From: a virus | Length of the DNA stretch: 25,020 bases | IMG/VR virus record: IMGVR_UViG_3300005529_000094 | Coordinates: 1 to 25,020 of that record | Strand: one strand, 5' to 3' | Part shown: piece after piece, positions 3,474 through 19,291 of the stretch | Layout: each line of letters opens with the position of its first letter | How positions within the stretch are numbered: the first letter of the stretch is position 1 | The notes under the pieces: model-generated | What the model saw: the letters and a program-made list of their open reading frames with translations, nothing else | The model's database searches: none | Told to the model about the DNA's origin: nothing | Position numbers and translations under genes: made by a program

Positions 3474-5168
3474 TCAGTTCCCCGTGTAGTTCGGCTGTTG
3501 CGGCGTGGTCGTTGTCTCGATCGCGCCGATCGTGCACGGGTTGCCGCGCGTCTGGCTGCCCCAATCCACCGTGGTGCATGCAGTGGTGGCACCGAGCGCC
3601 GGCGAGCCGGTTAATGGCGTTGCGTCGAACGATGCGCCAGTTTCGTTCTTCAACAGCGGATCGACGCAGGTCAAGCCGTTGCCGCACGTGTTGTTGCGGT
3701 AGTGCCACAGGATGTTGCTGGTGAAGTTCACGGTCGGCACGCCGGAGGTGTAGAAGCCGCAGGTGTAGGCGCCGCCGTTCTTGCCGAGATAGCTCACCTG
3801 CCCCAGCAGAATGTTGCTCTTGATGTTGAGCACGTCGCTGGACACCGGATCGAAGCCGCCCACTGCGCCGCTGCCGGGTCCGCTGTCGATCAGACAATCG
3901 CCGTTGCCGGTGACGGTGTTGTTCTGGAACGTGAGCGTTTGGTTGGCAGCGTTGTTGTCCAGCTCGACCGCATTCCCCAGCGCGCGGCAGCGCTCGGCAG
4001 GCACAGGCCCCATGCCGGTGAACTCCGAACAATCGCCGTTGATGACGCTGTTCTGCACCGTACCTGGGCCATTGACCTTGACCTGCTGCGACAGGTTGAA
4101 CTCGGAGGTCACCCGATCGACGAATACGCTGCCAGTTCCATCCGCGTACAGCAGGTCGAGCCCGTCGCTGGTGTTGTGCAGGAAGTGGTCGTTGATGAAG
4201 CGCCAGTTGCCCCCGGTGGCATAGGTGCCGAGGCCGTCGCCGTAACCGCCCTGCTCGGCTGCAACACAGGTGGCCATGGTGCCGACCGCCGGGTAATTCT
4301 CGGAGCAGCCGTTCCAGTCGATGCCCGAGTTCTTGATCAGGATGGTGCCAGAATTGCTGGAAGTGCCGCCTTCGCCGATGTCGCCATCCCAACCGCTCTC
4401 GGCGTTGCAGCAGATTTCGACGTGATCGAGGATCGTGGTGCCGGTCAGCCCGCCGACGTGGATGCCGTCGTGCGTAAAGCCGTGGATGTAGACGTTGGTC
4501 AGGATGAGGTTGTTAGTGTGCCGCGTTCCCGGACTGGGGCCGGTCGGTGTGTTGTAAACCTCGATTCCGTCTTGCGCGCCAAGATTGGTCGGCGGCGAAT
4601 TGGAGCAGATCGCCACCACGCCAGCCTTGTAATTGGTGTTCCACTCTGTACAGGTGGCGTGATCGGTCAATTCCAGACACGAGATCGTGATGCCACTCGT
4701 ATTGGTTACATCGATCAGGTCTTGTTGGTGGCCGCTTCCCCACAGCACAGGCATCGAAGGACACAAGCCGCCATTGGCACCCGTAATGGTGATGTTGTTA
4801 GGCAGATAGCGGCCGGTGTATGCGTCAAGGACGCACGCATAGGTGTAATTCGATTTGCAGCTTTCGGCTCCGGGCGTGCCATAGCCCATCGGGTAAGTCC
4901 CGGGGCTGATGACCAGCGTGTCGCCCGCAGCGATCCGTGGCGCTGGCGTGCCATCGCCGATGTAACCCGGCGGAATTGCGTATTGCGGGTTCTTCCACGC
5001 GCACGCCACGCCGGAGCCGCTGCCGGGATAGGCGGCATTCGCCAAGCCCGTGCACTGGGTCGCATCACCGCCATCTGTGCGCACGTAGTAGGTTGTGGCG
5101 CCGGCGGGAGTAACGATCTGTGCCAGCAGCGCCAGCGCGAAAGTGAAAATCAGCGTTCGAAGTTTCAT
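3474..5168 (-). CDS. Secreted cysteine-rich right-handed beta-helix protein (putative tailspike or cargo)
   Basis: The 564-residue product starts MKLRTLIFTFALALLAQ with an ordinary Sec signal peptide (1 to about 24, cleavage near PAGA-TTYY). This start is chosen because it carries the signal peptide and is preceded by GAGG. The mature part begins TTYYVRTDGGDATQC and continues with repeats typical of parallel beta-helices, such as ITISCLELTDH, LILTNVYIHGF, TTILDHVEICC and GTILIKNSGI, as in pectate-lyase-like proteins and tailspikes. It contains more than twenty cysteines, unusual for a cytoplasmically assembled virion protein but fitting an oxidising compartment. It sits between the gp48-type gene and the polyproline gene. 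It could be a tailspike captured with its export signal or a periplasmic lysogeny factor. The fold is fairly secure, the role is not. Confidence 0.7.
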   Translation of the reverse strand: MKLRTLIFTFALALLAQIVTPAGATTYYVRTDGGDATQCTGLANAAYPGSGSGVACAWKNPQYAIPPGYIGDGTPAPRIAAGDTLVISPGTYPMGYGTPGAESCKSNYTYACVLDAYTGRYLPNNITITGANGGLCPSMPVLWGSGHQQDLIDVTNTSGITISCLELTDHATCTEWNTNYKAGVVAICSNSPPTNLGAQDGIEVYNTPTGPSPGTRHTNNLILTNVYIHGFTHDGIHVGGLTGTTILDHVEICCNAESGWDGDIGEGGTSSNSGTILIKNSGIDWNGCSENYPAVGTMATCVAAEQGGYGDGLGTYATGGNWRFINDHFLHNTSDGLDLLYADGTGSVFVDRVTSEFNLSQQVKVNGPGTVQNSVINGDCSEFTGMGPVPAERCRALGNAVELDNNAANQTLTFQNNTVTGNGDCLIDSGPGSGAVGGFDPVSSDVLNIKSNILLGQVSYLGKNGGAYTCGFYTSGVPTVNFTSNILWHYRNNTCGNGLTCVDPLLKNETGASFDATPLTGSPALGATTACTTVDWGSQTRGNPCTIGAIETTTTPQQPNYTGN

Positions 5169-5175
5169 GGGTGCC

Positions 5176-7107
5176 TCACACTTGTTCGATACCGGGTTGA
5201 TTCGTGGTGCCGTCTGGATTGCCGCCGCTGCCGCCGCCGCCACCACTGATGACCGTGACGAGATGCGAGATGCTGTTGGTCGCGCCGAGGTTGTCGGTCA
5301 CCGTGAGCGTGACGGTGTAACTGCCGTTCGCCGCATAGGTGTGCGATGGATTGGTGGTGGTCGCGGTGTTGCCGTCGCCGAAGTCCCACAGGTGCGATGC
5401 GATCGTGCCGTCCGGATCGCTGGAGCCATCCACGAAGCTGGCGGTCAATCCGCTGATGCTGAAGGTGAACGCCGCGACCGGCGGCTGATTGCCGCCGCCC
5501 GAATACGTAAACGAATCCGTCGCCAGCCACAGCCGCGTGGCGATGCCGCCGGCGATCTGGATGGTCGCCGTCTCGCCGCTCTGCGCGATGCCATTGATGC
5601 GGTAGCCGTCGAATAGCGCGCCGGAACCGACCCAGCCCAGATAGGTATCCGAGCCGAAGCCGTAGTCCGTCTGCGCGGTGCCGGTCGGGACGCCATCGTT
5701 GGTATCGCCGCCGGCATACAGCACGACACCGGGCCCCGCCGTGTTGAAGGCCGGCGAGGTCAGGCTGGTGGCGTTGTACGGACCATCTGCTGCAGTGGCA
5801 TTCGGCGGCGTGGAACCGGTGGCGTCGTAAGACCACGCCGCGCTGCCCGGCGCCTGCCAGTGTTCCGCCAGTGCCGCGCTGGGCACACCCAGCGTGTGAT
5901 TGAAATTGATGGTGATGACGTTGCCGGTTTTCGCCGCGCTGGAAAGGCAGTAGAAGCACTGCGAGCGCACCCGGTGATAGGTTTCGTCCTGGAAATTGCC
6001 GGGCGTGTAAGTGTTGCCGGCGGTATCGGTGATGCTGGTGATCGAGTAGGCGCTGTCCCAGGCCACGCGCACACGGATCAGCTGGCCGGCGATGGCGTTG
6101 AAGGCACCGAGCACCAGCGTGCTGCTGGAGTAACCGGTCGTGGGCGGCGCCACCACGCGCGCCAGCAGCGTCGGTGTGCCGGTGCCGGAGGTGTCGCGCA
6201 AGCCGGCGGAGATGCCCGCCGCGGCCAGCGTCTGGTTCAAATTCTCGCGGTTGCCTTTGGCCAGCAGTGAAGCATCCGTTGCGGGCGCGAGGGTCTTGGC
6301 GACGGTTTCCGAAGTGCCCTTGCGCACGCCCGCGGAAACGGTGTCGGCGCCCAACGTCTTCGATACGGACAGGCGATCGGCATCGCTCAATGCGGCGGAG
6401 ACGGTGGCGCCGGCGAGCGTCTTGGTCAGCGCTTCGCCCGTGGTGCGGCCGATGCCAGCAGCGGCGCTGACGCCGCCCAGCCGCTGCGCGACGGCCAGGT
6501 CGTTTTCGGTGGCGACCGCCTGGATCAGCAGAATGGATTGCGCCGGCTTGATCGCCTGCAGTTCGCATTCAAGAACGTCGTTGCCCCAGTTCTCCAGCGC
6601 ATCACCGCAGGCGCTAACTCCGGCGCGGAAATACGTGATGCTTTGCAGCGGGATATCCACCGCCCAGGTAAAGGCCCAGTCCTGGCCTGCAAGCGGATCG
6701 CCCGCGTGGCTTTGCCCGCAGCGGAACGGCGCGTATTGCTTGACCGTCGCGGCGTAGCCCAGCAGCTTGGCGTAGGCGACGAAGAACGGAATCGACTGGC
6801 CGCCGCTGCCGGCCAGCCGCGCGACCACCTGCTGTCGCCGGCCTTGCAGCGTCGGCGATTCGCCGGCGCAGGGATCTGGCAAGCCGAGCGTGGCTTCCCA
6901 CTCCGGCAATAGATCCAGCGCCGTGGCGGGGAATGCATTGACCAGCAGATCGAGCCCAGCCTGCCCGCTGCGCTGGAAGCTCGGTGCGAAGCTGGCGAGC
7001 ACCTTCGCCTGCAGGCTGTCGGTATCGCGCGGCCACACCCGTCCCGGCGGCATCAACGCCTGCAAGGCGTGGGCATAGTCTTGGGTGGCGAAAACCGGCG
7101 CGGACAT
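5176..7107 (-). CDS. Mu gp48-like baseplate protein fused to repeats, beta-sandwich and PKD domain
   Basis: This 643-residue multidomain protein starts with a complete Mu gp48-type baseplate domain (1 to about 197: YAHALQALMPPGRVWPRD, LLPEWEATLGLPDPC, ALENWGNDVLECEL). Five copies of a 21-residue repeat follow (about 199-305, consensus TLAxATVSA...L-x-x-T). Next is a beta-sandwich-like region (about 310-537, with ITDTAGNTYTPGNF). After it comes a clear PKD domain (about 540-622: PPVAAFTF, DPDGTI, WDFGDGN, SHTYAANGSYTVTLTVTD). The end is a Gly-rich linker and the tail NPDGTTNQPGIEQV. Mu gp48 is only about the size of the first domain. The gene starts one base after the gp47 stop. PKD and sandwich domains bind surfaces in other proteins, so I infer a baseplate-anchored adhesin. 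Confidence 0.85.
   Translation of the reverse strand: MSAPVFATQDYAHALQALMPPGRVWPRDTDSLQAKVLASFAPSFQRSGQAGLDLLVNAFPATALDLLPEWEATLGLPDPCAGESPTLQGRRQQVVARLAGSGGQSIPFFVAYAKLLGYAATVKQYAPFRCGQSHAGDPLAGQDWAFTWAVDIPLQSITYFRAGVSACGDALENWGNDVLECELQAIKPAQSILLIQAVATENDLAVAQRLGGVSAAAGIGRTTGEALTKTLAGATVSAALSDADRLSVSKTLGADTVSAGVRKGTSETVAKTLAPATDASLLAKGNRENLNQTLAAAGISAGLRDTSGTGTPTLLARVVAPPTTGYSSSTLVLGAFNAIAGQLIRVRVAWDSAYSITSITDTAGNTYTPGNFQDETYHRVRSQCFYCLSSAAKTGNVITINFNHTLGVPSAALAEHWQAPGSAAWSYDATGSTPPNATAADGPYNATSLTSPAFNTAGPGVVLYAGGDTNDGVPTGTAQTDYGFGSDTYLGWVGSGALFDGYRINGIAQSGETATIQIAGGIATRLWLATDSFTYSGGGNQPPVAAFTFSISGLTASFVDGSSDPDGTIASHLWDFGDGNTATTTNPSHTYAANGSYTVTLTVTDNLGATNSISHLVTVISGGGGGSGGNPDGTTNQPGIEQV
6193..6513 (-). 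repeat. 21-residue (63-bp) degenerate repeat array in the gp48-type protein
   Basis: About five units are visible, with cores AQRLGGVSAAAG, KTLAGATVSAAL, KTLGADTVSAGV, KTLAPATDASLL and QTLAAAGISAGL. The period between successive TL motifs is 21 residues. The same consensus recurs in the gp46-type protein 2 kb upstream in the operon. Confidence 0.8.
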
Positions 7108-7108
7108 G

Positions 7109-8272
7109 TCAGGTGTACGTCACGGTGCCGAGCACAGGCAATTCGCCGGTGACGTTGGCGATGTTCGCTGTGGGCGACGTGATCACGAACCCGGCTGTGC
7201 CGGAGATCGCGGCGATCGCCGATTCGATCGCGGAGAGATCCACGGATGTTCCCGCGATCGGCGAGCCTTGCTCCAGGAACACCTGCTTGATCGCATCGCT
7301 GATCGCGCTGCGCACGCTGATCGGCGCCGTAGAGATGCCGCTGATGGTGAAATTGATGGTGTGCGCCGTCGGCGCGCAGACGTACACCAGCGCGGTGACG
7401 GGCTGCTTGTTGACGATCAAATCGGCAACGGTGAGCTGGTCGCCGGCCGCGACACTGCCGCGCGGCGAGCCGCCTGGACCCTGGTCATGTTGCGAAACAC
7501 CATCGGTGCCGACCGGGAACCCGTTGTTGCCGGCTTCCGCAACATCGAACATCACGTACACCACCACGGTGCCGACGCCGAAGCCGTTGGGCGCCACCCA
7601 GGCGCGCGTCACGCCGGGCACATCGAGCGCCCAGCCGATGTAGTCCTCCATGTCGCCGCCCTGCGGCGGGTTCTGGTAGGCCTGCAGCATGCGCGTGCGC
7701 AGCGAGGCATCGGTTTCGATGTCCGCACCGCCGGTCAATGCCGCAGCGACCGTGCCGGCGGATTGGATACCCGCGACGACCGATTGCAGCGTGAGGATGG
7801 TGCCGACGGGTGCATTGCCATCCGCGCCGCCGCCGGCCGGATTGTTGACCGGGTCGATGAGCGGCAGGATCGCGGTGACGGGGACCGTCACCGATCCGGA
7901 GGCAATGGTGCCGGTGGCGGTGGTCTGGTACACATAGCCATCGCCGCGCGCCAGCAGTGCGCCGGAAGGCAGCACCGCGCCGTTCGTTCCGGTGAAGGTG
8001 ACCGTGCCCGTTGCCGCCGTCGCCGGATTGCGCGTGATGCCTTTCAGCGCGGCCCAGGCCTCCAGATATTCATCGGTCGCGGTGTAGGGCACCGCCTGCA
8101 GCGCAATCCAATCCAGATAGCCGTAGTGCAGTTGCGCCAGGCCCGAGAGCACGGTGCCCAGCACGCCGAGATTGGAAAACCGCAGCAGGCCATCCGCGCC
8201 GGGCACACCGGAAGAAATATCCGCCGAAGTCTGCGCGCGCAGATCGGAAAGTGAGGGACGCTGGAAAGGCAT
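7109..8272 (-). CDS. Mu gp47-like baseplate wedge protein (J-like family)
   Basis: The 387-residue protein matches the baseplate J/Mu gp47 family, which builds the wedges that trigger sheath contraction. Recognisable parts are the N-terminal [15 protein letters not shown] (5-19), [19 protein letters not shown] (about 63-81), the strand-rich [16 protein letters not shown] region, the [19 protein letters not shown] segment (about 188-206) and [12 protein letters not shown] (about 219-230). The C-terminal half ([24 protein letters not shown]) has the usual helix followed by beta structure. The start lies 15 bases after the stop of the gp46-type gene, and the gp48-type gene follows with a one-base gap, so the gene order 46-47-48 is the Mu order. 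Confidence 0.92.
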
Positions 8273-8287
8273 CGATGCGGATCCCGA

Positions 8288-11032
8288 TCAGTTGAGCTGA
8301 TTCCACGCCCAGTTGAAATTGAGCGACTGCCGCGCGCCGTTGACGCGCAGGATTTCCACCGTGGCGTTGAGCCGGTTCGGCATCACGATCGAGGTGGTGA
8401 TATTCACGCTCGCGGCGACGCCGTCGCTGAGCATCCAGGCCAGCGCTTCGGCGATGTAGCCTTTTGCCGTCAGTGCGACCGAAGGCATGAGCTTGGAGCG
8501 CGACAGCAGCCACAGGCGCGAGCCGATCGGCACGTCCTGATCCAGATCGCCCCACCAGCCCCGGCGGTCGTTGGAGGCGGGATCGGGCAATACGTCGTCC
8601 GCATTGGCCAGCCGGTCGGTGAAGAGACTGATCAGCACCGCGGTGGTGAGATCATCGCCGCTGGCCAGCGCCGCGTTGCGCAATTGCCAGTCGCCACGGA
8701 TATTGGCGACATCCCAGAACGTGGTGATGTCGCCCGGCGGCAACGTGCTCAAACGCCCCACGGGCTTGGATGGAAATAGCACGCTCTTGGAAGCCGCGCC
8801 GCCCAGCGTTTGTGTCACGCCCAGCGGATTGACCACCGTCTGCTGCACCACCGCGCTGGCGCTCGCCGGCGCCAGGGTTTGGGTGAGGCTTTCTCCCGCC
8901 GCCTGATGCAGCGTGGCAGCACTCGTTGCCGGCGCCAGCGTCTCGTTGACCGAGGCGCCTGAATCCTGTTTGAAGGCGGAGGAACCGGTTGCGGGTGCCA
9001 GCGTATGCGTGGAAGAAAGCGCGTGCCCTTCCGTATCCACCGCGGTGAGGGCGGCGCCGGCGAGCGCGCTCGTTTCCGAGAGCTTGCGGCCTTCGACTTC
9101 GGTGATGTGAGGAGTGACGCCGCCGAGCGTTTCATCCACACCGTAGCTGGTGACAAACTGGCCTGCTAAAAAGGCCTGCCGGATCGACTGCATGGTGCGG
9201 ATGGACGTGACGCCCATCTCGCCGCCGGAGGTGTCGTTGGTGCGGAACACGATGCCGGCGATCGAGAAATCCTTCTTGATCCAGACCACCGTTCCGTAGG
9301 TGCCGGCCATCCAGAAATCGCCGGTGACGGGCTCGATCCACATCGCCCATTCGTGCTTCCAAGGTTCGTTCGCCGGCGCCGGCGAAGAGAATACGCTGCC
9401 ATCGGTGAAGTAGGCCGAGGCGTTGACCGGAACCCAGGAAGGCGATTCCAATAATGCGCGGTAGGCTGCGAAGGTGTTGTTCAATATCTGCTGCGCGATC
9501 GCGCGCAGCACGGCTGGCGTGCAGTCCACGCCACCCGCCGGCATGGGCGAGGAAAGCTGGAGCTGGGTGACGCTGAACGTGGCGCGGTATTCGGCGGCGA
9601 TTGCCGAACGGGTATCGCTGCCGTGGCTGGGCGAGAGTACCTTGTCCATGTGGTACTGCTCGTGCGCCGAGTCGTACGAGAAGATACCGACGTGCGCCGG
9701 ATTCAGCGCGCCGTACGGGAACCCGCCCGTGCCCACGGTCAGCAGGCATTGATCCACGGTTTGCGTGGCGCTCTGCTGACACTTCTGGCCCTGCATCAAA
9801 TCGTGGCCGGAGGTGTGCGTGAAAAACGGATAATCGGCTGCGCCCAGCGTGAAATTCTGCGCCGCCCAGATCGCGTACACCGTCTTGGAAACCGATGCGA
9901 CCGCCGCTTGCGTCGTCACCGTCGGCGCGCTGGCGCTGCCGAAGCTGCCGGACCACAACACCGTGTCGGCGGTGAATATCTCGCCGTAGAAATCCGTGCC
10001 GCCGTTGGCGATGTCGTGATTGGCGGCGGATGTGGCCGCGGCCTGGGACTGGACGAGTGGAATGTCCGACCAGGCGGCGGCAACCGACGCGGGCGCGAGC
10101 GTCTTGTTGAGCGATTCGCTCTCCGTTTTCAGATCGGATTCGCCGGCGCTGAGCGATGCTGGAGCGAGTGCGCTGGTCTCGGAAAGTTTGCGGCCTTGCT
10201 TTTCCGCCGCGGAGACCGTGGCGCCAGTGAGCGCGCTGGTTTCGTTGAGTTTCCTCCCTTCGGTCTCCGCTGCGCTGACGGTCGCCGCACCCAGAGTGTC
10301 CGTGCCGCTGAGCTTGCGGCCTTCGGTTTCCGCCGCGCTGACCGTGGCACTGCCGAGCGCATCCGTCGCGCTGTAGCTTTCCAGCGGTGTGTAGGTGATG
10401 ACGATGACGCCGGCGCGGCCCGCACCGGAATTGTGCCCGCTGCGAGCGCCGCCGCCGCCGCCGCCGTACTGCCCGCCGGCGGCGCCATCGCCCGTGGCCG
10501 AAGCGCCGCCACCGCCGCCGGAACCGGCCGTGCCCCATTCCGTGCCCGAGCTGCCCGGCAGCGATGCGGTGCCGCCCGCACCGCCGAATCCGGCATCGCC
10601 GGAACCACCCGTGGCGCCACTGGTGCTGGCATTGCCGGGACCATTGGGTCCGCCTGCGCCGCCACCGCCGCTGGCCGTGCCCGTGGGGTTGCCACCGCCT
10701 GCATTGACTGTGCTGCCGACGCTGGCGGAGGTTGCCGAGCCTCCGCCTCTTGCAAGCACGGTACTGGTCGAATTGAACCAGGTGTCGCCGCCGGCATTGG
10801 GCGTTGCGTTTGCGGTTGCTGAGCCGCCGACGCCCAAATGATAGGTAACGTTGGCGCCAGGCGTCAGCGCGAGGTTGACGATCTTGGCGTAATCGCCGCC
10901 GGCGCCACCGTTGGTATTGGTCGCGATCCAGCCGGATTGTCCACCACCGATGCACTCGATGGTGTTGGCGGCGTTGTTCCAGTCAGCAGGAACCGTCCAC
11001 GACGAGCCGGTCGTCAGGATGATCTGGGCCAC
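8288..11032 (-). CDS. Giant baseplate fusion: Gly-rich domain, repeats, SxxK hydrolase-like domain, Mu gp46 domain
   Basis: This 914-residue protein has five visible parts. Residues 1 to about 215 are a tail-fibre-type Gly-rich domain (start [18 protein letters not shown]). Residues about 219-323 are five 21-residue repeats ([13 protein letters not shown]). Residues about 340-600 resemble the serine beta-lactamase/DD-peptidase fold: [12 protein letters not shown] with S380-x-x-K383, FSYDSAH with Y453-D-S455, [10 protein letters not shown] (497-506) and GTYGTVVWI (577-585). Six more repeats follow (about 630-750). Residues about 765-914 are the Mu gp46 baseplate domain ([30 protein letters not shown]). 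Mu gp46 alone is only about the size of the last domain. No separate gp46 start is apparent. I infer a baseplate protein displaying an envelope-acting hydrolase; the domain calls at both ends are firm, the enzyme call is moderate. Confidence 0.82.
8753..9145 (-). repeat. Second half of the 21-residue repeat array in the gp46 fusion
   Basis: About six units lie at residues 630-760, with cores [70 protein letters not shown] and [12 protein letters not shown]. Spacing is 21 to 23 residues. The unit [15 protein letters not shown] closely matches units of the first half. Confidence 0.8.
10064..10378 (-). repeat. First half of the 21-residue repeat array in the gp46 fusion
   Basis: About five units lie at residues 219-323: [65 protein letters not shown] and [14 protein letters not shown]. 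The first three repeat exactly every 21 residues and are also clearly alike at DNA level. The array is interrupted after the fifth unit by the hydrolase-like domain. Confidence 0.85.
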
Positions 11033-11053: not shown

Positions 11054-11458
11054 TCAACCGTTGGCTTCGTTGAGCGTGAAGCTCGTGACCGTTTCGGTGT
11101 CGCCGCTGCCGACGGTGGTGCTGGTGGCGATCATGTCGCCGCCGCCGCCGCTGGCGGTGATCGTGCCCTGGATGTGGCAGGTGGTGCCGGTGGAATCGTA
11201 GATGCGGAAATAACCCGCGGTGCCGGCGGCCGATGCGGTGCTGGTCCAGGTGCCGGACATGGACTTCGAATCGCCGGACGCGCCCGCCATCCAATCCGAC
11301 GGCAACGTCATGGTGTCCAGCAGCGTGCCGGTGGCCGCGGCGGCGCAGTTGGCCGGCACGGAACCGGTATAGATCTTCAGCAGCGGCGCGGTGCCGATTG
11401 TGCTCTCGATGACATCGAGGCGAGCATTGCGGACGGCATCGGAAAATTGCAGGGCCAT
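11054..11458 (-). CDS. Conserved small phage virion-type protein, function unknown
   Basis: The 134-residue protein begins MALQFSDAVRNARLDVIES and contains LLKIYTGSVPANCAAA (about 26-41), LPSDWMAGASGDSKSMSG (about 53-70), AGYFRIYDSTGTTCHIQGT (about 81-99) and a C-terminal ETVTSFTLNEANG. I recognise this as a protein often found near tail-fibre and baseplate genes in tailed phages, with no assigned function. It is strand-rich, with no membrane or signal segment. AAGGAAG precedes the ATG. The gene sits behind the terminator at 11481-11510 and 22 bases ahead of the giant gp46 fusion. Confidence 0.7.
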   Translation of the reverse strand: MALQFSDAVRNARLDVIESTIGTAPLLKIYTGSVPANCAAAATGTLLDTMTLPSDWMAGASGDSKSMSGTWTSTASAAGTAGYFRIYDSTGTTCHIQGTITASGGGGDMIATSTTVGSGDTETVTSFTLNEANG

Positions 11459-11533: not shown

Positions 11534-12109
11534 TTACTGCTGCGGGTTGGGCGGATGCGTCACGGCATCGAGCGGATGCCCGTGCTCGTTGTAGAGATCG
11601 CGCATGTTCTTGACCGTGTGCGACTGGCTATCGCAGTTGTCGATGATGTCGCCGGTGCATTCCAGGCGCGGGGTGACGCAGCGGATCTTCGAGGAGGCGT
11701 TGATCGTCACCTGCGTGGCGTTGTTAACTACCACGGGGCCGTTCTTCGCATCGATCTCGATCGAGCCGTCCGCTTTCAGATAGACGTGCTTGCCCCACAG
11801 GTCGTAGAGCATTGCCTCGCCTTCGGCGAGATTCTTCGGCCGACTTGGCTGGTGACCGGTGGCTATCACCACGCCGTTCGATCGATCGCCGGCGATGAAC
11901 ACCAGCACTACATCCGACTGCGCAGGCGGCCGCGAGGTGAAACCGAACTCGGCCAGGCGCGGCGTACCATCGCGCAGCTCACCCCAGTTCACCTGGGCCT
12001 GAATCTTTTGCACCGTGCCGGTGTCGTCGCTCGCAGTGACGCGTGCGCGCGCGACGGTGAGCTGTATGCGCCGCCAGAACTGCCGCGCAAATCCGGCAAG
12101 ATCGCTCAT
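11534..12109 (-). CDS. Mu gp45-like baseplate spike protein
   Basis: This 191-residue protein is the central membrane-piercing spike of the contractile tail. The N-terminal region [22 protein letters not shown] leads into an OB-like part (about 30-95) with [22 protein letters not shown] and [27 protein letters not shown]. This is the Mu gp45 signature that docks on the hub. The later part ([27 protein letters not shown]) has the alternating strand pattern of a beta-helix spike. The C-terminus holds [12 protein letters not shown], whose HxH and further His recall the metal-binding spike tip. The start overlaps the P stop by four bases (ATGA). Confidence 0.9.
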
Positions 12110-13170
12110 TGCGCGCTCGCCGGAATATCGCCAAAGGTGGGTTGCAGCAGAATCGGCTCCGGCTTGAACGCATCGGGCGGCATCAGCATCAGCTCCGCCG
12201 TGGTGCCGCGCTCATCGCTTTTCGAATACGTCACCTCGCCGATGCACATTGCGCCGTCCTTCAACTTCAGCGTCGGCAAATTCACCGGCGCCAGCGTGTT
12301 CGGTTGCCACAGCTTGCCGGCTGAGTCGCGCCAGCTATCGACGGTGACGCGCACCATGCGCGAGCGGCCCGCGCGGCGCGCGCATTCCCACAGTGCGCGC
12401 TTCTTGGCGACGTCGTTGCCGCCGCCGCCGGCTTCGGCGATCAGGATCAGCGCGCGGTGGCGCGGACAGTTCGGGTCCGGCACATCAGAGAGTTCATTGC
12501 CGGTGTTGCCGAGATCAGTGAAGGTGTCCACCGACTGGATGAAAGCCTTGTAATTGCTGTAGCGCTGATCCATCGAAAACTCGACGGAGGCTTCCTGCAC
12601 ATTCGTGCCTTCGGCCGCGCCGCTCGCGGCCTTGTCCGTGCCGACCTGCGCCAGCACCAGGTTGCCGTCCGGCATGTCGTAAGCCAGCAGCGCGGAATAA
12701 CGGCTGATGCGTTCGATCACTTCGAACGCCGATTCGCCCAGCATCAGGTTGAATTGCGGAATGGCCGGAAGGCCTGGCACCTTCGACGTCACCGTAATGC
12801 CGTACGGCTGGGCCAGCTTCTGCGCGATGCCGAGCGCGTTGGCGCCGTTGATCTGCCCGCCCGGCCACTCCGCGGCACAATCGACCAGGTCGCAGCACTT
12901 CGAGCGGCCCACCACCGTGATGCTGTGGCGGTCGTCGCCGAAACTTGGAATGAAGCGATCCACGTAGCCGGTGATGACAAGGTCTTGGCCCAGGTGTACC
13001 GTGCACGCTGCTCCGGGCGCGATGATCACCTTGTCCAACTCGCCGGGAAACAGCTCGGTCAGACCGATCTGGAAATCCGAAGGCAGACGCTCGATCCCGC
13101 GCGTGACACGGATGTCCGTCCAGCCGGAGATGGCCTGGCCACCGACGGTCAGCGTGAGATCGTCCGACAC
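12106..13170 (-). CDS. Mu gpP-like baseplate hub protein
   Basis: The 354-residue protein matches the gpP/gpD hub family, the trimer that joins tube, tape measure and spike. Diagnostic stretches are the N-terminal [20 protein letters not shown] (5-24), [17 protein letters not shown] (about 61-77) and [19 protein letters not shown] (about 82-100). They are followed by [32 protein letters not shown] (about 175-195) and a C-terminal [21 protein letters not shown]. It starts with GTG at 13170 because no in-frame ATG precedes the conserved N-terminus, and its ribosome-binding site is weak. The plus-strand moron starts only 14 bases away in the other direction. In Mu, P follows N directly, so the moron is an insertion between them. 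Confidence 0.9.
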
Positions 13171-13595: not shown

Positions 13596-14974
13596 CTCGC
13601 GAGCGCTTGGAACTGCTGCGGCATGAAGGCCGGGTGCACGGGCTTCGCCTGATCGATCAACTGGTCCGCGCGCGAGGCATCGGCATAGATGCGCTGCGCC
13701 AGCATCAGCGCCGGGAGCGGTGCGTTGTAGGTGAATTCCTGCAGGCGCGGTAGGCCTGCGCCGGCCTGGATCAGCAGCGCCACGGCCATCTGGCGCAGCG
13801 TGCGCAGGGCGCCGTAGCTGGCGTCGTCGCCCGCATCGCCGGCGGTGAGGATTTCCCCGTCCAGATAACCCGTGACCTGCGTGCGAACGTTGGCGGCGTC
13901 ATCGTAGGAACTGGGCGCGTACTGGCCGACCGCGCGCACCAGTGCACCGATTGCCGCGCGGCGCAGCAGTGCGCTGCTCGCCGCTTGTGCAAGCTGTTCC
14001 GCTGCAGCGGACTGTCCAACGCCGGTGGAAACTGGCGGCGTGTACTGCGCCAGCGCGCTGAAGAGACGCAGGGAATCCCCGGGATTCACCACCGCGGTGC
14101 CGAGCGCGGCGGTCAACCCTTGCGCAGCGGCGGTGAAGCTCAGAGCGCTCGACGCATCAAGGCCTGCCGCCGCTTGAGTGAGTGTTTCGGATGCGGCGGC
14201 CACCGCGGAGCGATCCTGAGCGCCTTCCGCCTCCAGGGTGCCGATGGTGAGACTCTCATCGGCCGTCTGGCCACCGCCGAAGGCCGACAGGATGTTGGCA
14301 TTGACGTAGCGCCCGTAGTTGCCGGTGAGCTGGCTGGCCAAGTTGAACAGGCTGGTGGCATCGCGCGCGGCGGTGCCGGCGAGCGAGATGAAGCCCGCCA
14401 CGGTGCCGACCACTGCGCCTACCACCGCGCTGCCGAGACTGATCGCCCCGGGCACGATGCCGAGGCCCAGATTCACCGAACGCGTGATGCTGGAAACGAA
14501 ATCCTGCGCGGCGGAAACATCCAGCGAGTCGCACAGCGAATCCAGCGCATCGGGCGTGGTGGTGGAGGCGCTCGGGAACTGCCGCTCGCCGGATTCGAGG
14601 AAAGTGAAACCGATTTCGAAGTAGCGGCCGTGATCCCAGCGTTCGATGACGCTCAAGCCACCATCGGGAATACTGACCTGCAACTGCCCCAGCGTCGGGT
14701 GCACCAATGTGCCGGGCCCTGCGGTTTCCGCCGCGGCGACCATTGCGTCGCGCTGGGAGAACGCATCGCCTCCGCCGTAGACCAGGCTGTTTTCGATCAG
14801 AAACCCGGTGAGCGTGATGCGGCGCGTGGAGCGGCCGAGATCCTCGATGTAGGGCGTGTCGCGATTGGGATACTGATGCGGCACCACGCGCCGGCCGAAT
14901 CGGCCCTCGCTGCCAAGCACGCCGAACGGCACGCCGCGGAACGACGCTTGCTGCAACTGGTCGAACCAGCTCAT
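13592..14974 (-). CDS. Mu gpN-like tail protein, DNA circularisation family
   Basis: The 460-residue protein begins with a DNA_circ_N domain: MSWFDQLQQASFRGVPFGVLG, RRVVPHQYPNRDTPYIEDLGR (about 29-49), RRITLTGFLI and VIERWDHGRYFEIGFTFLESG (about 109-129). In Mu the equivalent gene N encodes a baseplate/tail component; the name DNA circularisation is historical. The remainder is a long Ala/Gly-rich, mostly helical region with a hydrophobic stretch near 170-205 (SLGSAVVGAVVGTVAGFISLAG) and ends PALMLAQRIYADASRADQLID. The start overlaps the tape-measure stop by four bases. Its own stop overlaps that of the plus-strand moron, so it does not couple to the hub gene P as in Mu. Confidence 0.88.
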   Translation of the reverse strand: MSWFDQLQQASFRGVPFGVLGSEGRFGRRVVPHQYPNRDTPYIEDLGRSTRRITLTGFLIENSLVYGGGDAFSQRDAMVAAAETAGPGTLVHPTLGQLQVSIPDGGLSVIERWDHGRYFEIGFTFLESGERQFPSASTTTPDALDSLCDSLDVSAAQDFVSSITRSVNLGLGIVPGAISLGSAVVGAVVGTVAGFISLAGTAARDATSLFNLASQLTGNYGRYVNANILSAFGGGQTADESLTIGTLEAEGAQDRSAVAAASETLTQAAAGLDASSALSFTAAAQGLTAALGTAVVNPGDSLRLFSALAQYTPPVSTGVGQSAAAEQLAQAASSALLRRAAIGALVRAVGQYAPSSYDDAANVRTQVTGYLDGEILTAGDAGDDASYGALRTLRQMAVALLIQAGAGLPRLQEFTYNAPLPALMLAQRIYADASRADQLIDQAKPVHPAFMPQQFQALAS

Positions 14975-16923
14975 GCCGCCGCTCCGACCATCGACGTCGC
15001 CACGCGCGTGGAAGCGGTGACATTGGGATCAGGCTTGACGCGCGCTTTCGTGCCCGGCTCCGCCGAAACGGTGACGTGCACTTTCTGGGGTTCGTTCTTG
15101 CCAGCTACAGGTTGCGAATAAGGGCCGTTGGGAGCGGCATTGAAGGCTTCATTCGCATAGGAAGTTCGGCGATTGAAACTGCCGTCATCGCCGAAGCGTT
15201 CGTACTGCACGCCGAATACCAACGCCGCATTGTCGACCGCAGTAGTCCGGCGAAGGTTGCCGCCGGCCTGTTTCTCGCTGTTGTTCAACTCCCAGTTGAT
15301 GAACTTCAGTTGATCCTCGAAGCTGGCGCCCTTCAGCGGCTCATGCATGACCTGCTGAAACAACTGCACACGCGATCCGAGCCACTGCCCGACGCCCATC
15401 GCTCCGCTCTTGGCATTGACGGCGTTGGGATTGAGGCCGCTTTCCTGTTCCAGATTTCCGACGATTCCGGCGGACTGCGCACGGGTCCATCCTTGCGACA
15501 TGAAGTACTGCATCGCCTTCGAAACCTTGGCTTTGCCGTAGCCGGTACGCTCTGGGTGAAAATCGCCCGAGTGATTTTCTGGCGTGCGGCGATGCATGTC
15601 GTCGAGCGCTTCCTGCGCGCCCGGAATTCCGAGGGTGGCGGCCAGACGTGCCGCGCCTTCTGCGATCACGTCGCCGGCTTTGGTGCCCTGCAGAAAATGC
15701 GTGTAGATCCAATACCCGGCAAGCGCCCCGGTCGCGGCGGCGATGGCCGTGGCGAGCGTGCCGAACACGGCCGCCATGCCACTCAACCCGGTAATGGCTG
15801 AAACGCTGGCAACGCTGATCTTTGCGAAGGCGCCGGCGATGCTCAACACCGGCGAGAGAAACTTCGCCCCCATGATCGCACCGGCGCCGATCATCACGAC
15901 GTTCCAGCCGCCGATCGACTTAACCGCGTCGTTGATCGAATGCACCAGGTGATCGACGCCGTCAATGGAATTGCGGAGGTTTTTACCGACGCGCTTCCAG
16001 TCGATACTGCGCAACCAGGCGCCGAACTCGCGCGCGTATTCGCCGATTTTCTGTGCGATCAGCTCGCGGTTCTTGCCGACCCAGTCGGTCAGTCCGTTCA
16101 ACAGCGGCTCGATCGCCGGCATCAGTGCGTTGCCGATCGAGTTCTTCAGCGCGGAAACGGTGATGTCCATCTTCGCCAGCTTGTCGGCGAATTCATCGGC
16201 AGACTTAATCTGCGCCGGCGTCATGATCAGGCCGGTTTTCTCGGCTTCCGCGCGCGCCGCGCGCATGTCGCCGTGGTACTTGCGGATCAGCGGCAGCATG
16301 GCGGTGAGGCCGAACTGTCCTGCGACCAGCCGCTGCTTTTGCGGATCGAACAGGTTGTAGATGGCGCGGCCCAGGGCGTCGAATTCGCCGGCGGCATCCA
16401 CCGCGCCGCTGGCGGTGCGCTTGATGCCGATGCCAAGCCGGTTGAACAACATCAGCGCCTGCTGGTTGCGGCCGTACAGCGCATCTTCCATGGTGTCGCC
16501 GAGGCTGGTGAGGCTCTGCGTCATCGCCTCGCCGGACAAGCCGGCCAAGCGCGCGGCGCCCTGGAATTCCTGCAACTGCGTGGTGCCGATGCCGATGTCC
16601 TGCGCGGAATAGGTAACGTTGCGGCCGAGCTTGGCTACGCCATCGGCGAGCGCGATGACGCCGGCGACGGATGCAATGCCGGTAATGCCGGTGAGCGGCG
16701 CCGCGATCGAGGCGATGCCGCGCGCGGCGGCGCGCGCATCGGCGCCGATGCGTGACAGGTTGGCGCCGATCTTATCGAAGCCGATCTCGCGGCCGAGACT
16801 CTTGAAGGATTTTCCGACCTGGTCGAATGGGCGCGTCAGCTTGCTGACGGCATCGTTGACCTTGCGGACGGTGGCCGTGGCCTTGTCGGTGGCCGAGATG
16901 ACGATCTGGAAGGTCTGTGCCAT
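14971..16923 (-). CDS. Tail tape measure protein with C-terminal phage tail lysozyme domain
   Basis: The 650-residue protein begins with a helical coiled-coil-like region (TFQIVISATDKATATVRKVNDAVSKL) typical of Mu/P2 tape measures, with hydrophobic stretches near 68-98 and 345-408 that may enter the host membrane. Residues about 467-595 are a phage tail lysozyme domain: AMQYFMSQGWTRAQSAGIVG, then NLEQESGLNPN with the probable catalytic Glu494, GAMGVGQWLGSR (508-519) and ALVFGVQYERFG. This would cut peptidoglycan during DNA injection. Using about 0.15 nm per residue, 650 residues correspond to a tail of roughly 100 nm, less if the lysozyme does not span the tube. The ATG lies one base after the stop of the frameshifted chaperone. 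Confidence 0.9.
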   Translation of the reverse strand: MAQTFQIVISATDKATATVRKVNDAVSKLTRPFDQVGKSFKSLGREIGFDKIGANLSRIGADARAAARGIASIAAPLTGITGIASVAGVIALADGVAKLGRNVTYSAQDIGIGTTQLQEFQGAARLAGLSGEAMTQSLTSLGDTMEDALYGRNQQALMLFNRLGIGIKRTASGAVDAAGEFDALGRAIYNLFDPQKQRLVAGQFGLTAMLPLIRKYHGDMRAARAEAEKTGLIMTPAQIKSADEFADKLAKMDITVSALKNSIGNALMPAIEPLLNGLTDWVGKNRELIAQKIGEYAREFGAWLRSIDWKRVGKNLRNSIDGVDHLVHSINDAVKSIGGWNVVMIGAGAIMGAKFLSPVLSIAGAFAKISVASVSAITGLSGMAAVFGTLATAIAAATGALAGYWIYTHFLQGTKAGDVIAEGAARLAATLGIPGAQEALDDMHRRTPENHSGDFHPERTGYGKAKVSKAMQYFMSQGWTRAQSAGIVGNLEQESGLNPNAVNAKSGAMGVGQWLGSRVQLFQQVMHEPLKGASFEDQLKFINWELNNSEKQAGGNLRRTTAVDNAALVFGVQYERFGDDGSFNRRTSYANEAFNAAPNGPYSQPVAGKNEPQKVHVTVSAEPGTKARVKPDPNVTASTRVATSMVGAAA

Positions 16924-17797: not shown

Positions 17798-19291
17798 TTA
17801 TTGCAGGCGGAATTGCGCGAGCAATGCGAACACGCGCAGCTGGTCGATCAGCACGCCTGGCCAGAGGACGTCGATGCGGTTGGGATTCTGCGCGTTGATC
17901 TGCACCACCAGGCCCTGCGCGAAGGCGGCGCTGTTCTGCACGTAGCCGTTGTATTCCAGCGTCTGGTACTCGGCGATGATGTCGGCCTTGATGATCGACG
18001 GCGTGACGATCGCCGAGCCCGGCGCGAAGCGCGTGCCGTCCGCGGCGAGTTTCACGCGCGCGTATTTCGAGGTGACGACGCTCGCCAGATCCCGCAGGAT
18101 GAACATCAGCAGGAACATGGTCTCGATTTCCAGGTAGCTGTCGTCCGCCTGGCCGAAACCGTTCTTCTGGTAAGTGGTGATGACATTCTCCAGCTGCACC
18201 GTGCCATCCTGCGCGACCGTGAAGGTGCTGATGCCGTCGAAGAGCAGCGTGTTGCGCTCGCTCAGGGTGAAGCGGGATTGCAGCGGCGGCGGCAGCACCG
18301 AACTCAGCTTCAGCGTCTGCAGCGGCCGGCCGGGATCGGCGCGCAGCGCTACCGCCGCGGTGCCGGCGAGATCCGCCGCCCATACCCAGTTGGGCGAAGG
18401 CGAATCATAGAAACCGAGCACGGTTTCGTGCTGGTTGTTGCGCGCGGTGCCGAAGGTGGTCTGCGCGGAGACATTGCCACGGTAGGCGGCAAAAACATGG
18501 CCGTACACCTGGCTCGCCCAGCTCCAGCGGCCGGTCTGGTCGTTGAGCAGGCTCTTCAACGCATCGAGCGACGTGCCATCGGTATACGGACAGACGATGA
18601 AGTCGAACGGCTGGTCGCCGAGGTTTGCCAGCGCGGTGGTCAGCGAAGGATTGGTGGCGCCGTTGGCCATTGCGACCAGGGTGTACGCGACACCCGGCGG
18701 CGTGACTTCGCCGGCGGCCGCGCCCTGGTAGTTGAAGCGCAGGTCGATATCGTTACCCGCGGCGCCGGCGTTGTTAGCCGTGATGTTGACCTTGCTGATG
18801 GTCGTGCCGTCCACGGCCGCGGTGACCGGCAGATCGGAATTCGCGTTGATGGCCGCGGCAAGTGCGGTGGCCATCGAATCGGCGGTGTCGGACGTATCTA
18901 CCGGCACGCTGACGAGCTGGCCGCCGATGTAGAGCGAGAGCACGCCGACCGCGGTCGGCACGGAGGTGAAGTTGATCGACCCCACCGCGGCGACGGCGCC
19001 GACCGCGTCGGAGAGCGGCAGCAGCCAGACTTCGCCGAACGAATCGGCCTTGTAGTAAGCAGCTACCTCCTGCGCGAGCATCGAGCCCTGGCCTGCCTTG
19101 GCGATGGCATCGTTGGGGCCTGCGCAGATCACCGGCACGTTGGGCGTGGCGTTGCCGTCGGATGTGATCTGCCCGATCAGCAGCGCGCGTTGCGTCTGCT
19201 GGCCGGTGTTGGCTTGGCTATTGTCGACCTCCGCATAGAACAGCGGAACGCGAAGATTCTGGGGGATGTTGGAAAAAGGTACGGCGCTCAT
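17798..19291 (-). CDS. Contractile tail sheath protein (Mu gpL-like)
   Basis: The 497-residue protein is the contractile sheath subunit. The N-terminus VPFSNIPQNLRVPLFYAEVD (4-23) followed by TQRALLIGQI (about 32-41) is diagnostic of Mu-type sheaths. Further family features are LAQEVAAYYKADSFGEVWLLPL (about 77-98), FDFIVCPYTDGTSLDALKSLL and the conserved C-terminal part TVAQDGTVQLENVITTYQKN, DDSYLEIETMFLLMFI and RIDVLWPGVLIDQLRVFALL, which forms the contact with the tube. Length is normal. The start overlaps the DUF2635 gene by four bases, and GGGAG stands before the ATG. Confidence 0.95.
   Translation of the reverse strand: MSAVPFSNIPQNLRVPLFYAEVDNSQANTGQQTQRALLIGQITSDGNATPNVPVICAGPNDAIAKAGQGSMLAQEVAAYYKADSFGEVWLLPLSDAVGAVAAVGSINFTSVPTAVGVLSLYIGGQLVSVPVDTSDTADSMATALAAAINANSDLPVTAAVDGTTISKVNITANNAGAAGNDIDLRFNYQGAAAGEVTPPGVAYTLVAMANGATNPSLTTALANLGDQPFDFIVCPYTDGTSLDALKSLLNDQTGRWSWASQVYGHVFAAYRGNVSAQTTFGTARNNQHETVLGFYDSPSPNWVWAADLAGTAAVALRADPGRPLQTLKLSSVLPPPLQSRFTLSERNTLLFDGISTFTVAQDGTVQLENVITTYQKNGFGQADDSYLEIETMFLLMFILRDLASVVTSKYARVKLAADGTRFAPGSAIVTPSIIKADIIAEYQTLEYNGYVQNSAAFAQGLVVQINAQNPNRIDVLWPGVLIDQLRVFALLAQFRLQ

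Follow-up and report, generated by a model that had tools for sequence, protein, structure and literature searches.

PF00144-type serine hydrolase domains have been described on the tails of mycobacteriophages. Minor tail proteins of these phages carry PF00144, and two reports identify Omega gp39 and Corndog gp59 as virion proteins (PMC3706429, PMC4351075), with mass spectrometry confirming Corndog gp59 in the particle (PMC4351075). Both belong to phrog_382, together with Fowlmouth gp25 and Shauna1 gp19, and Shauna1 gp19 combines its PF00144 domain with a Gly_rich_2 domain, as does the 914-residue protein analyzed here. The phrog_382 proteins differ from that protein in coming from mycobacterial siphophages, in their carrier protein and domain order, and in having no described 21-residue repeat tether. 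The statement in the preliminary description of this locus that no well-described phage has this fold in its baseplate was too strong. In the open-access literature we found no description of a PF00144 domain in a Mu-like contractile baseplate. The PF00144 domain on a phage tail is thus known; what looks new is the combination of a contractile Mu-like baseplate, a wedge protein as the carrier, and a repeat tether.

Two groups of PF00144 proteins are also close to this system. Family VIII carboxylesterases and EstB-like enzymes share the Pfam family and have an SxxK motif and a tyrosine without a KTG box. A further subfamily, represented by L346 and L337 and annotated "serine hydrolase domain-containing protein," occurs on Bacteroides, Sphingobium, and Agrobacterium plasmids and in genomes from the phylum to which G594 (L037's genome, titled Acidobacteriia) belongs. 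The carrier is of the Mu gp46 (phrog_180) type, whose relatives are usually about 150 to 200 residues long.

The window is a complete virus record of 25,020 bases; the recognized genes, and all features given below with coordinates in the window, lie on the minus strand. The genes run from a portal and head protease through the major head protein, sheath, and tape measure to a Mu-like baseplate block, in which the order gp44 hub, gp45 spike, gp46, gp47, gp48 is followed by a 590-residue protein and then a tail fiber. The contractile sheath lies at 17798-19291 (phrog_165, E 3.8e-185), and the tape measure protein (14971-16923) has its own C-terminal tail lysozyme domain (PF18013, residues 468 to 595). 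After the Mu gp44-like hub (12106-13170) and gp45-like spike (11534-12109) come a 134-residue virion structural protein of phrog_3758 (11054-11458), the extended wedge protein (8288-11032), a Baseplate J-like/Mu gp47 protein (7109-8272), and a 643-residue Mu gp48-like baseplate protein (5176-7107). The phrog_3758 protein also lies between gp45 and gp46 in L238, which encodes the closest gp46 relative. The 590-residue protein (3474-5246) had no match in PHROGs or Pfam; it reads as beta-helix-like, contains a stretch resembling a secretion signal (MKLRTLIFTFALALLAQIVTPAGA), and is possibly a captured bacterial secreted protein. A DNA methyltransferase (phrog_56; 179-985) lies downstream of the tail fiber. 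Because the hub is 72 to 74% identical to its counterparts in Dyella and Rhodanobacter prophages, the host is probably a Gram-negative bacterium related to these genera.

The extended wedge protein is encoded in one open frame with a GTG start and is built, from the N terminus, of a Gly_rich_2 domain, 21-residue repeats, the SxxK domain, a second set of 21-residue repeats, and GP46. Pfam and PHROGs recognize only the two ends: the glycine-rich domain (PF21722, residues 10 to 214; 10391-11005; Pfam E 5.8e-6, above the cutoff) and the GP46/phrog_180 baseplate wedge domain (residues 768 to 913; 8294-8731; Pfam 1.6e-32, PHROG 3.1e-47). The latter is full length for PF07409/phrog_180 and stands in a Mu-like gene order, and these C-terminal 146 residues clearly belong to the Mu gp46 family, here with a 767-residue N-terminal extension that bears cargo. 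The relative in L238, in contrast, is 82% identical in GP46 but is 205 residues long; it has a short repeat-like stretch and lacks the cargo. The N-terminal repeat array (residues 216 to 318; 10079-10387) has 53% self-identity at an offset of 21 and a consensus of approximately GRKLxETxALxxATVSAAExE, and the C-terminal array (residues 637 to 765; 8738-9124) is 43% identical to it. Between the arrays lies the PF00144-type SxxK domain (residues 320 to 634; 9131-10075).

A misassembly in which bacterial hydrolase sequence was joined to a phage gene might be suspected, given a single 25-kb virus record and nearest gp46 relatives that lack the insert. We find this reading hardly credible: the frame is open throughout, GC3 stays at 0.75 to 0.86 along the open reading frame and is similar across its segments, and one kind of 21-residue repeat lies on both flanks of the domain and recurs in gp48 of the same record. 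In the gp48-like protein, the repeats occupy approximately residues 196 to 312 and a PKD domain lies at residues 540 to 617. The gp46- and gp48-type wedge proteins of one phage thus have the same repeat arrays with different cargo, namely, SxxK and glycine-rich domains on the gp46 type and PKD on the gp48 type. Separately, GP46 proteins in L014 (3422-4747) and L016 (2699-4024) have approximately 280 residues inserted within the domain after its first 20 residues, a second route by which a gp46 wedge protein takes additional sequence.

Searches with the SxxK domain alone against Pfam, NCBIfam, PHROGs, PDB sequences, phages, plasmids, IMG/VR, and GTDB returned no close relative. The plasmid search gave a single chance-level match (E 0.4), and tblastn matches in approximately 600 genomes, drawn from the family and phylum to which G001 (Dyella) belongs, were all at chance level. 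The domain did not match phrog_382 (minor tail protein with lysin activity) in the PHROG search, and a DNA pattern for the GxFGxYPW motif, which proved too strict, had zero matches. In a Pfam hmmscan reported up to E 10, PF00144 was absent and its curated cutoff was not reached. The profile check proposed in the preliminary description therefore failed with the curated Pfam model, but custom PF00144 profiles did recognize the domain. One such profile was built from 79 PF00144 proteins that had been gathered independently from 25 genomes, with the 914-residue protein left out; it scored the domain at 19.2 bits, compared with maxima of 12.2 bits for 2,000 shuffled sequences and 7.0 bits for 1,828 other open reading frames. 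Block-permuted copies of the domain (n = 2,000) reached at most 12.6 bits, so the score depends on motif order. The match is split into two collinear parts, the first covering SxxK and the second running from AGG to the last strands. When the profile was rebuilt from half-samples, the domain exceeded all 1,000 shuffles in 12 of 12 cases, once by only 0.2 bits. Narrow PF00144 clades used singly did not place it above shuffles, and the EstB-like clade profile by itself did not recognize it.

Profile-profile comparison supports a relation to a specific subfamily. With the domain as the query, tblastn against 396 genomes of the G594 phylum ranked second a true PF00144 protein (its own Pfam PF00144 E 2.3e-34), at an E value of 0.007 per genome that is not significant by itself. 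A profile of 18 PF00144 proteins of this subfamily aligned with the domain full-length over 273 columns (hhalign probability 93.7%, P 1.9e-7). A chance motif match in a region with an unrelated fiber or cargo fold would agree with the absence of matches in curated libraries and with a poor single-sequence structure model, but it is very improbable against this full-length alignment and a profile score above the shuffle, permutation, and real-ORF nulls. On these comparisons, residues 320 to 634 are a real, divergent, slightly shortened PF00144-type domain. The earlier proposal of such a domain inside a baseplate protein is thus borne out by profile, profile-profile, and assisted fold comparisons, together with the C-terminal GP46/phrog_180 domain.

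The domain keeps 20 of 40 subfamily-conserved columns, including S380, K383, T407, G409, F438, Y440, G441, P468, G500, G501, W565, G577, G580, and W584. Like the L346/L337 proteins, it has S-x-x-K, HTSG, F-x-Y-G, AGG, W, G-x-[FY]-G-x-x-x-W, and a C-terminal helix in collinear order, and C418 and C429 have the C-x10-C spacing also found in the nearest relative, L337. The subfamily members differ in not being phage proteins and in a longer helical subdomain; the stretch that joins the SxxK helix to HTSG is approximately 25 residues shorter in the phage domain. The preliminary description had mapped residues 340 to 600 exactly (9233-10015) and correctly listed VASVSK, FSYDSAH, and segments at residues 497 to 506 and 577 to 596 in that order, but its motif list omitted FTHTSG (404 to 409) and F-P-Y-G (438 to 441).

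S380 (9893-9895), the expected nucleophile of the S-x-x-K that opens the core helix, aligns on the invariant serine of PF00144, and K383 (9884-9886), the expected general base, aligns with the invariant pair. They are followed by the family motif HTSG (residues 406 to 409; 9806-9817). Placement of the catalytic tyrosine varies by alignment, falling on Y440 in the subfamily alignment and on Y453 in some others. From sequence conservation, Y440 (F-P-Y-G, residues 438 to 441; 9713-9715) is the more likely equivalent, as it falls on the invariant tyrosine of the subfamily F-x-Y-G motif; here this motif is followed by proline, where the family has P-L-G. Y453 in F-S-Y-D-S (9674-9676), the residue first proposed, is the less likely candidate. 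PAGG (residues 498 to 501; 9530-9541) includes the subfamily-conserved G500 and G501, and GTYGT (residues 577 to 581; 9290-9304) in the last strand pair begins a stretch in which G577, G580, and W584 are conserved in the subfamily. The last motif had been called divergent. Indeed, the KTG or HTG/HSG box that class C beta-lactamases and DD-peptidases have on the strand beside the active site is absent, and the segment reads MAGTYGT, but it is similar to a segment, G-x-F-G-x-x-P-W, found in one PF00144 subfamily.

Single-sequence AlphaFold gave a poor model of the domain (pLDDT 33). Viral scans with PF00144 alignments identified few viral relatives, and an assisted prediction, in which the domain was aligned with eight viral PF00144 sequences, reached a pLDDT of 46 and a pTM of 0.55. 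The PDB matches listed by Foldseek for the assisted model were all beta-lactamase/PBP-fold proteins (best E 4.9e-6), and VIA-align gave Z scores of about 12 over 220 to 240 residues to the esterases EH7 and EstG and the acyltransferase LovD; EH7, EstG, and EstB are among the best fold matches of this model. A BFVD fold search returned nothing below E 0.001, with serine hydrolases and mycobacteriophage minor tail proteins as the top names. Since its alignment came from the PF00144 family, the assisted model is partly circular and indicates compatibility with a beta-lactamase fold rather than independent proof.

Taken with its position on the wedge protein, the domain is a candidate surface acyl-hydrolase. 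We consider it probable, with some reserve, that a divergent PF00144-type domain with this function is carried on the gp46 wedge and displayed at the tail tip. It would derive from a secreted bacterial serine hydrolase, probably captured, and the 21-residue repeats would tether it, together with the glycine-rich domain, to the N terminus of the gp46-type wedge protein. The 914-residue protein would be present in the virion with its fold intact and its N-terminal cargo outward; because it is repeat-tethered to the N terminus of the wedge protein, the SxxK domain should sit outside the tail tip. In the proposed catalysis, S380 would attack an acyl bond with K383 as the base and Y440 assisting, cleaving an acyl ester or amide at the host surface during adsorption.

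The domain may nevertheless be inactive, because approximately 25 residues are missing and 20 of the 40 conserved columns differ. In the main rival reading, which we judge unlikely but serious, the PF00144 fold is kept as a noncatalytic binding module for attachment on the baseplate. The gap between SxxK and HTSG, the change in half of the subfamily-conserved columns, and the missing KTG box would all suit such a pseudoenzyme, and the glycine-rich domain in the same protein and the PKD domain of gp48 look like binding or spacer modules. Retention of S380, K383, and the F-x-Y-G tyrosine despite wide divergence is, however, unexpected without selection on the site.

For an active domain, our best guess is an esterase-like enzyme whose substrate would be a surface polymer decorated with acyl or acetyl groups. 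Two features favor this over a beta-lactamase or a peptidoglycan DD-peptidase: the KTG box is absent, and a lysozyme domain is already present in the tape measure. These same two features make it improbable that the domain is a peptidoglycan DD-carboxypeptidase or endopeptidase trimming the wall during DNA entry. Such a role is suggested by the annotation of actinophage tail PF00144 proteins as D-Ala-D-Ala carboxypeptidases, but in the sources consulted this precedent consists of annotation and virion presence, with no assayed activity reported. In addition, the host is probably Gram negative, and its wall would be reached only past the outer membrane. The proximity to PF13354 or S11 DD-peptidases suggested earlier found no profile support: curated Pfam models of PF13354 and PF00768 (S11) did not match the domain, and our own profiles of these families, a weak test because some members were taken from the wrong strand, gave no score or scores below shuffles.

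The full scenario is more tentative, and we hold it as possible though somewhat doubtful: the wedge protein of a Mu-like contractile phage that infects a Gram-negative host would bear an active SxxK acyl-hydrolase on a repeat tether with exchangeable cargo, and this enzyme would deacylate a surface polymer before injection. For the most part, phages of Gram-negative hosts have glycan lyases, glycosidases, SGNH-type deacetylases, and lysozymes as their virion enzymes. A PF00144-type hydrolase borne by a wedge protein would, if confirmed, add an enzyme class to this set. The inner baseplate would likewise be able to bear swappable cargo on repeat tethers, and the wedge slot that holds cargo here is a bare domain of approximately 150 residues in relatives. 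An enzyme for modifying the host surface may arrive with the phage particle itself, and a concrete, testable question follows: which bond such an SxxK enzyme would cut there as the phage adsorbs.
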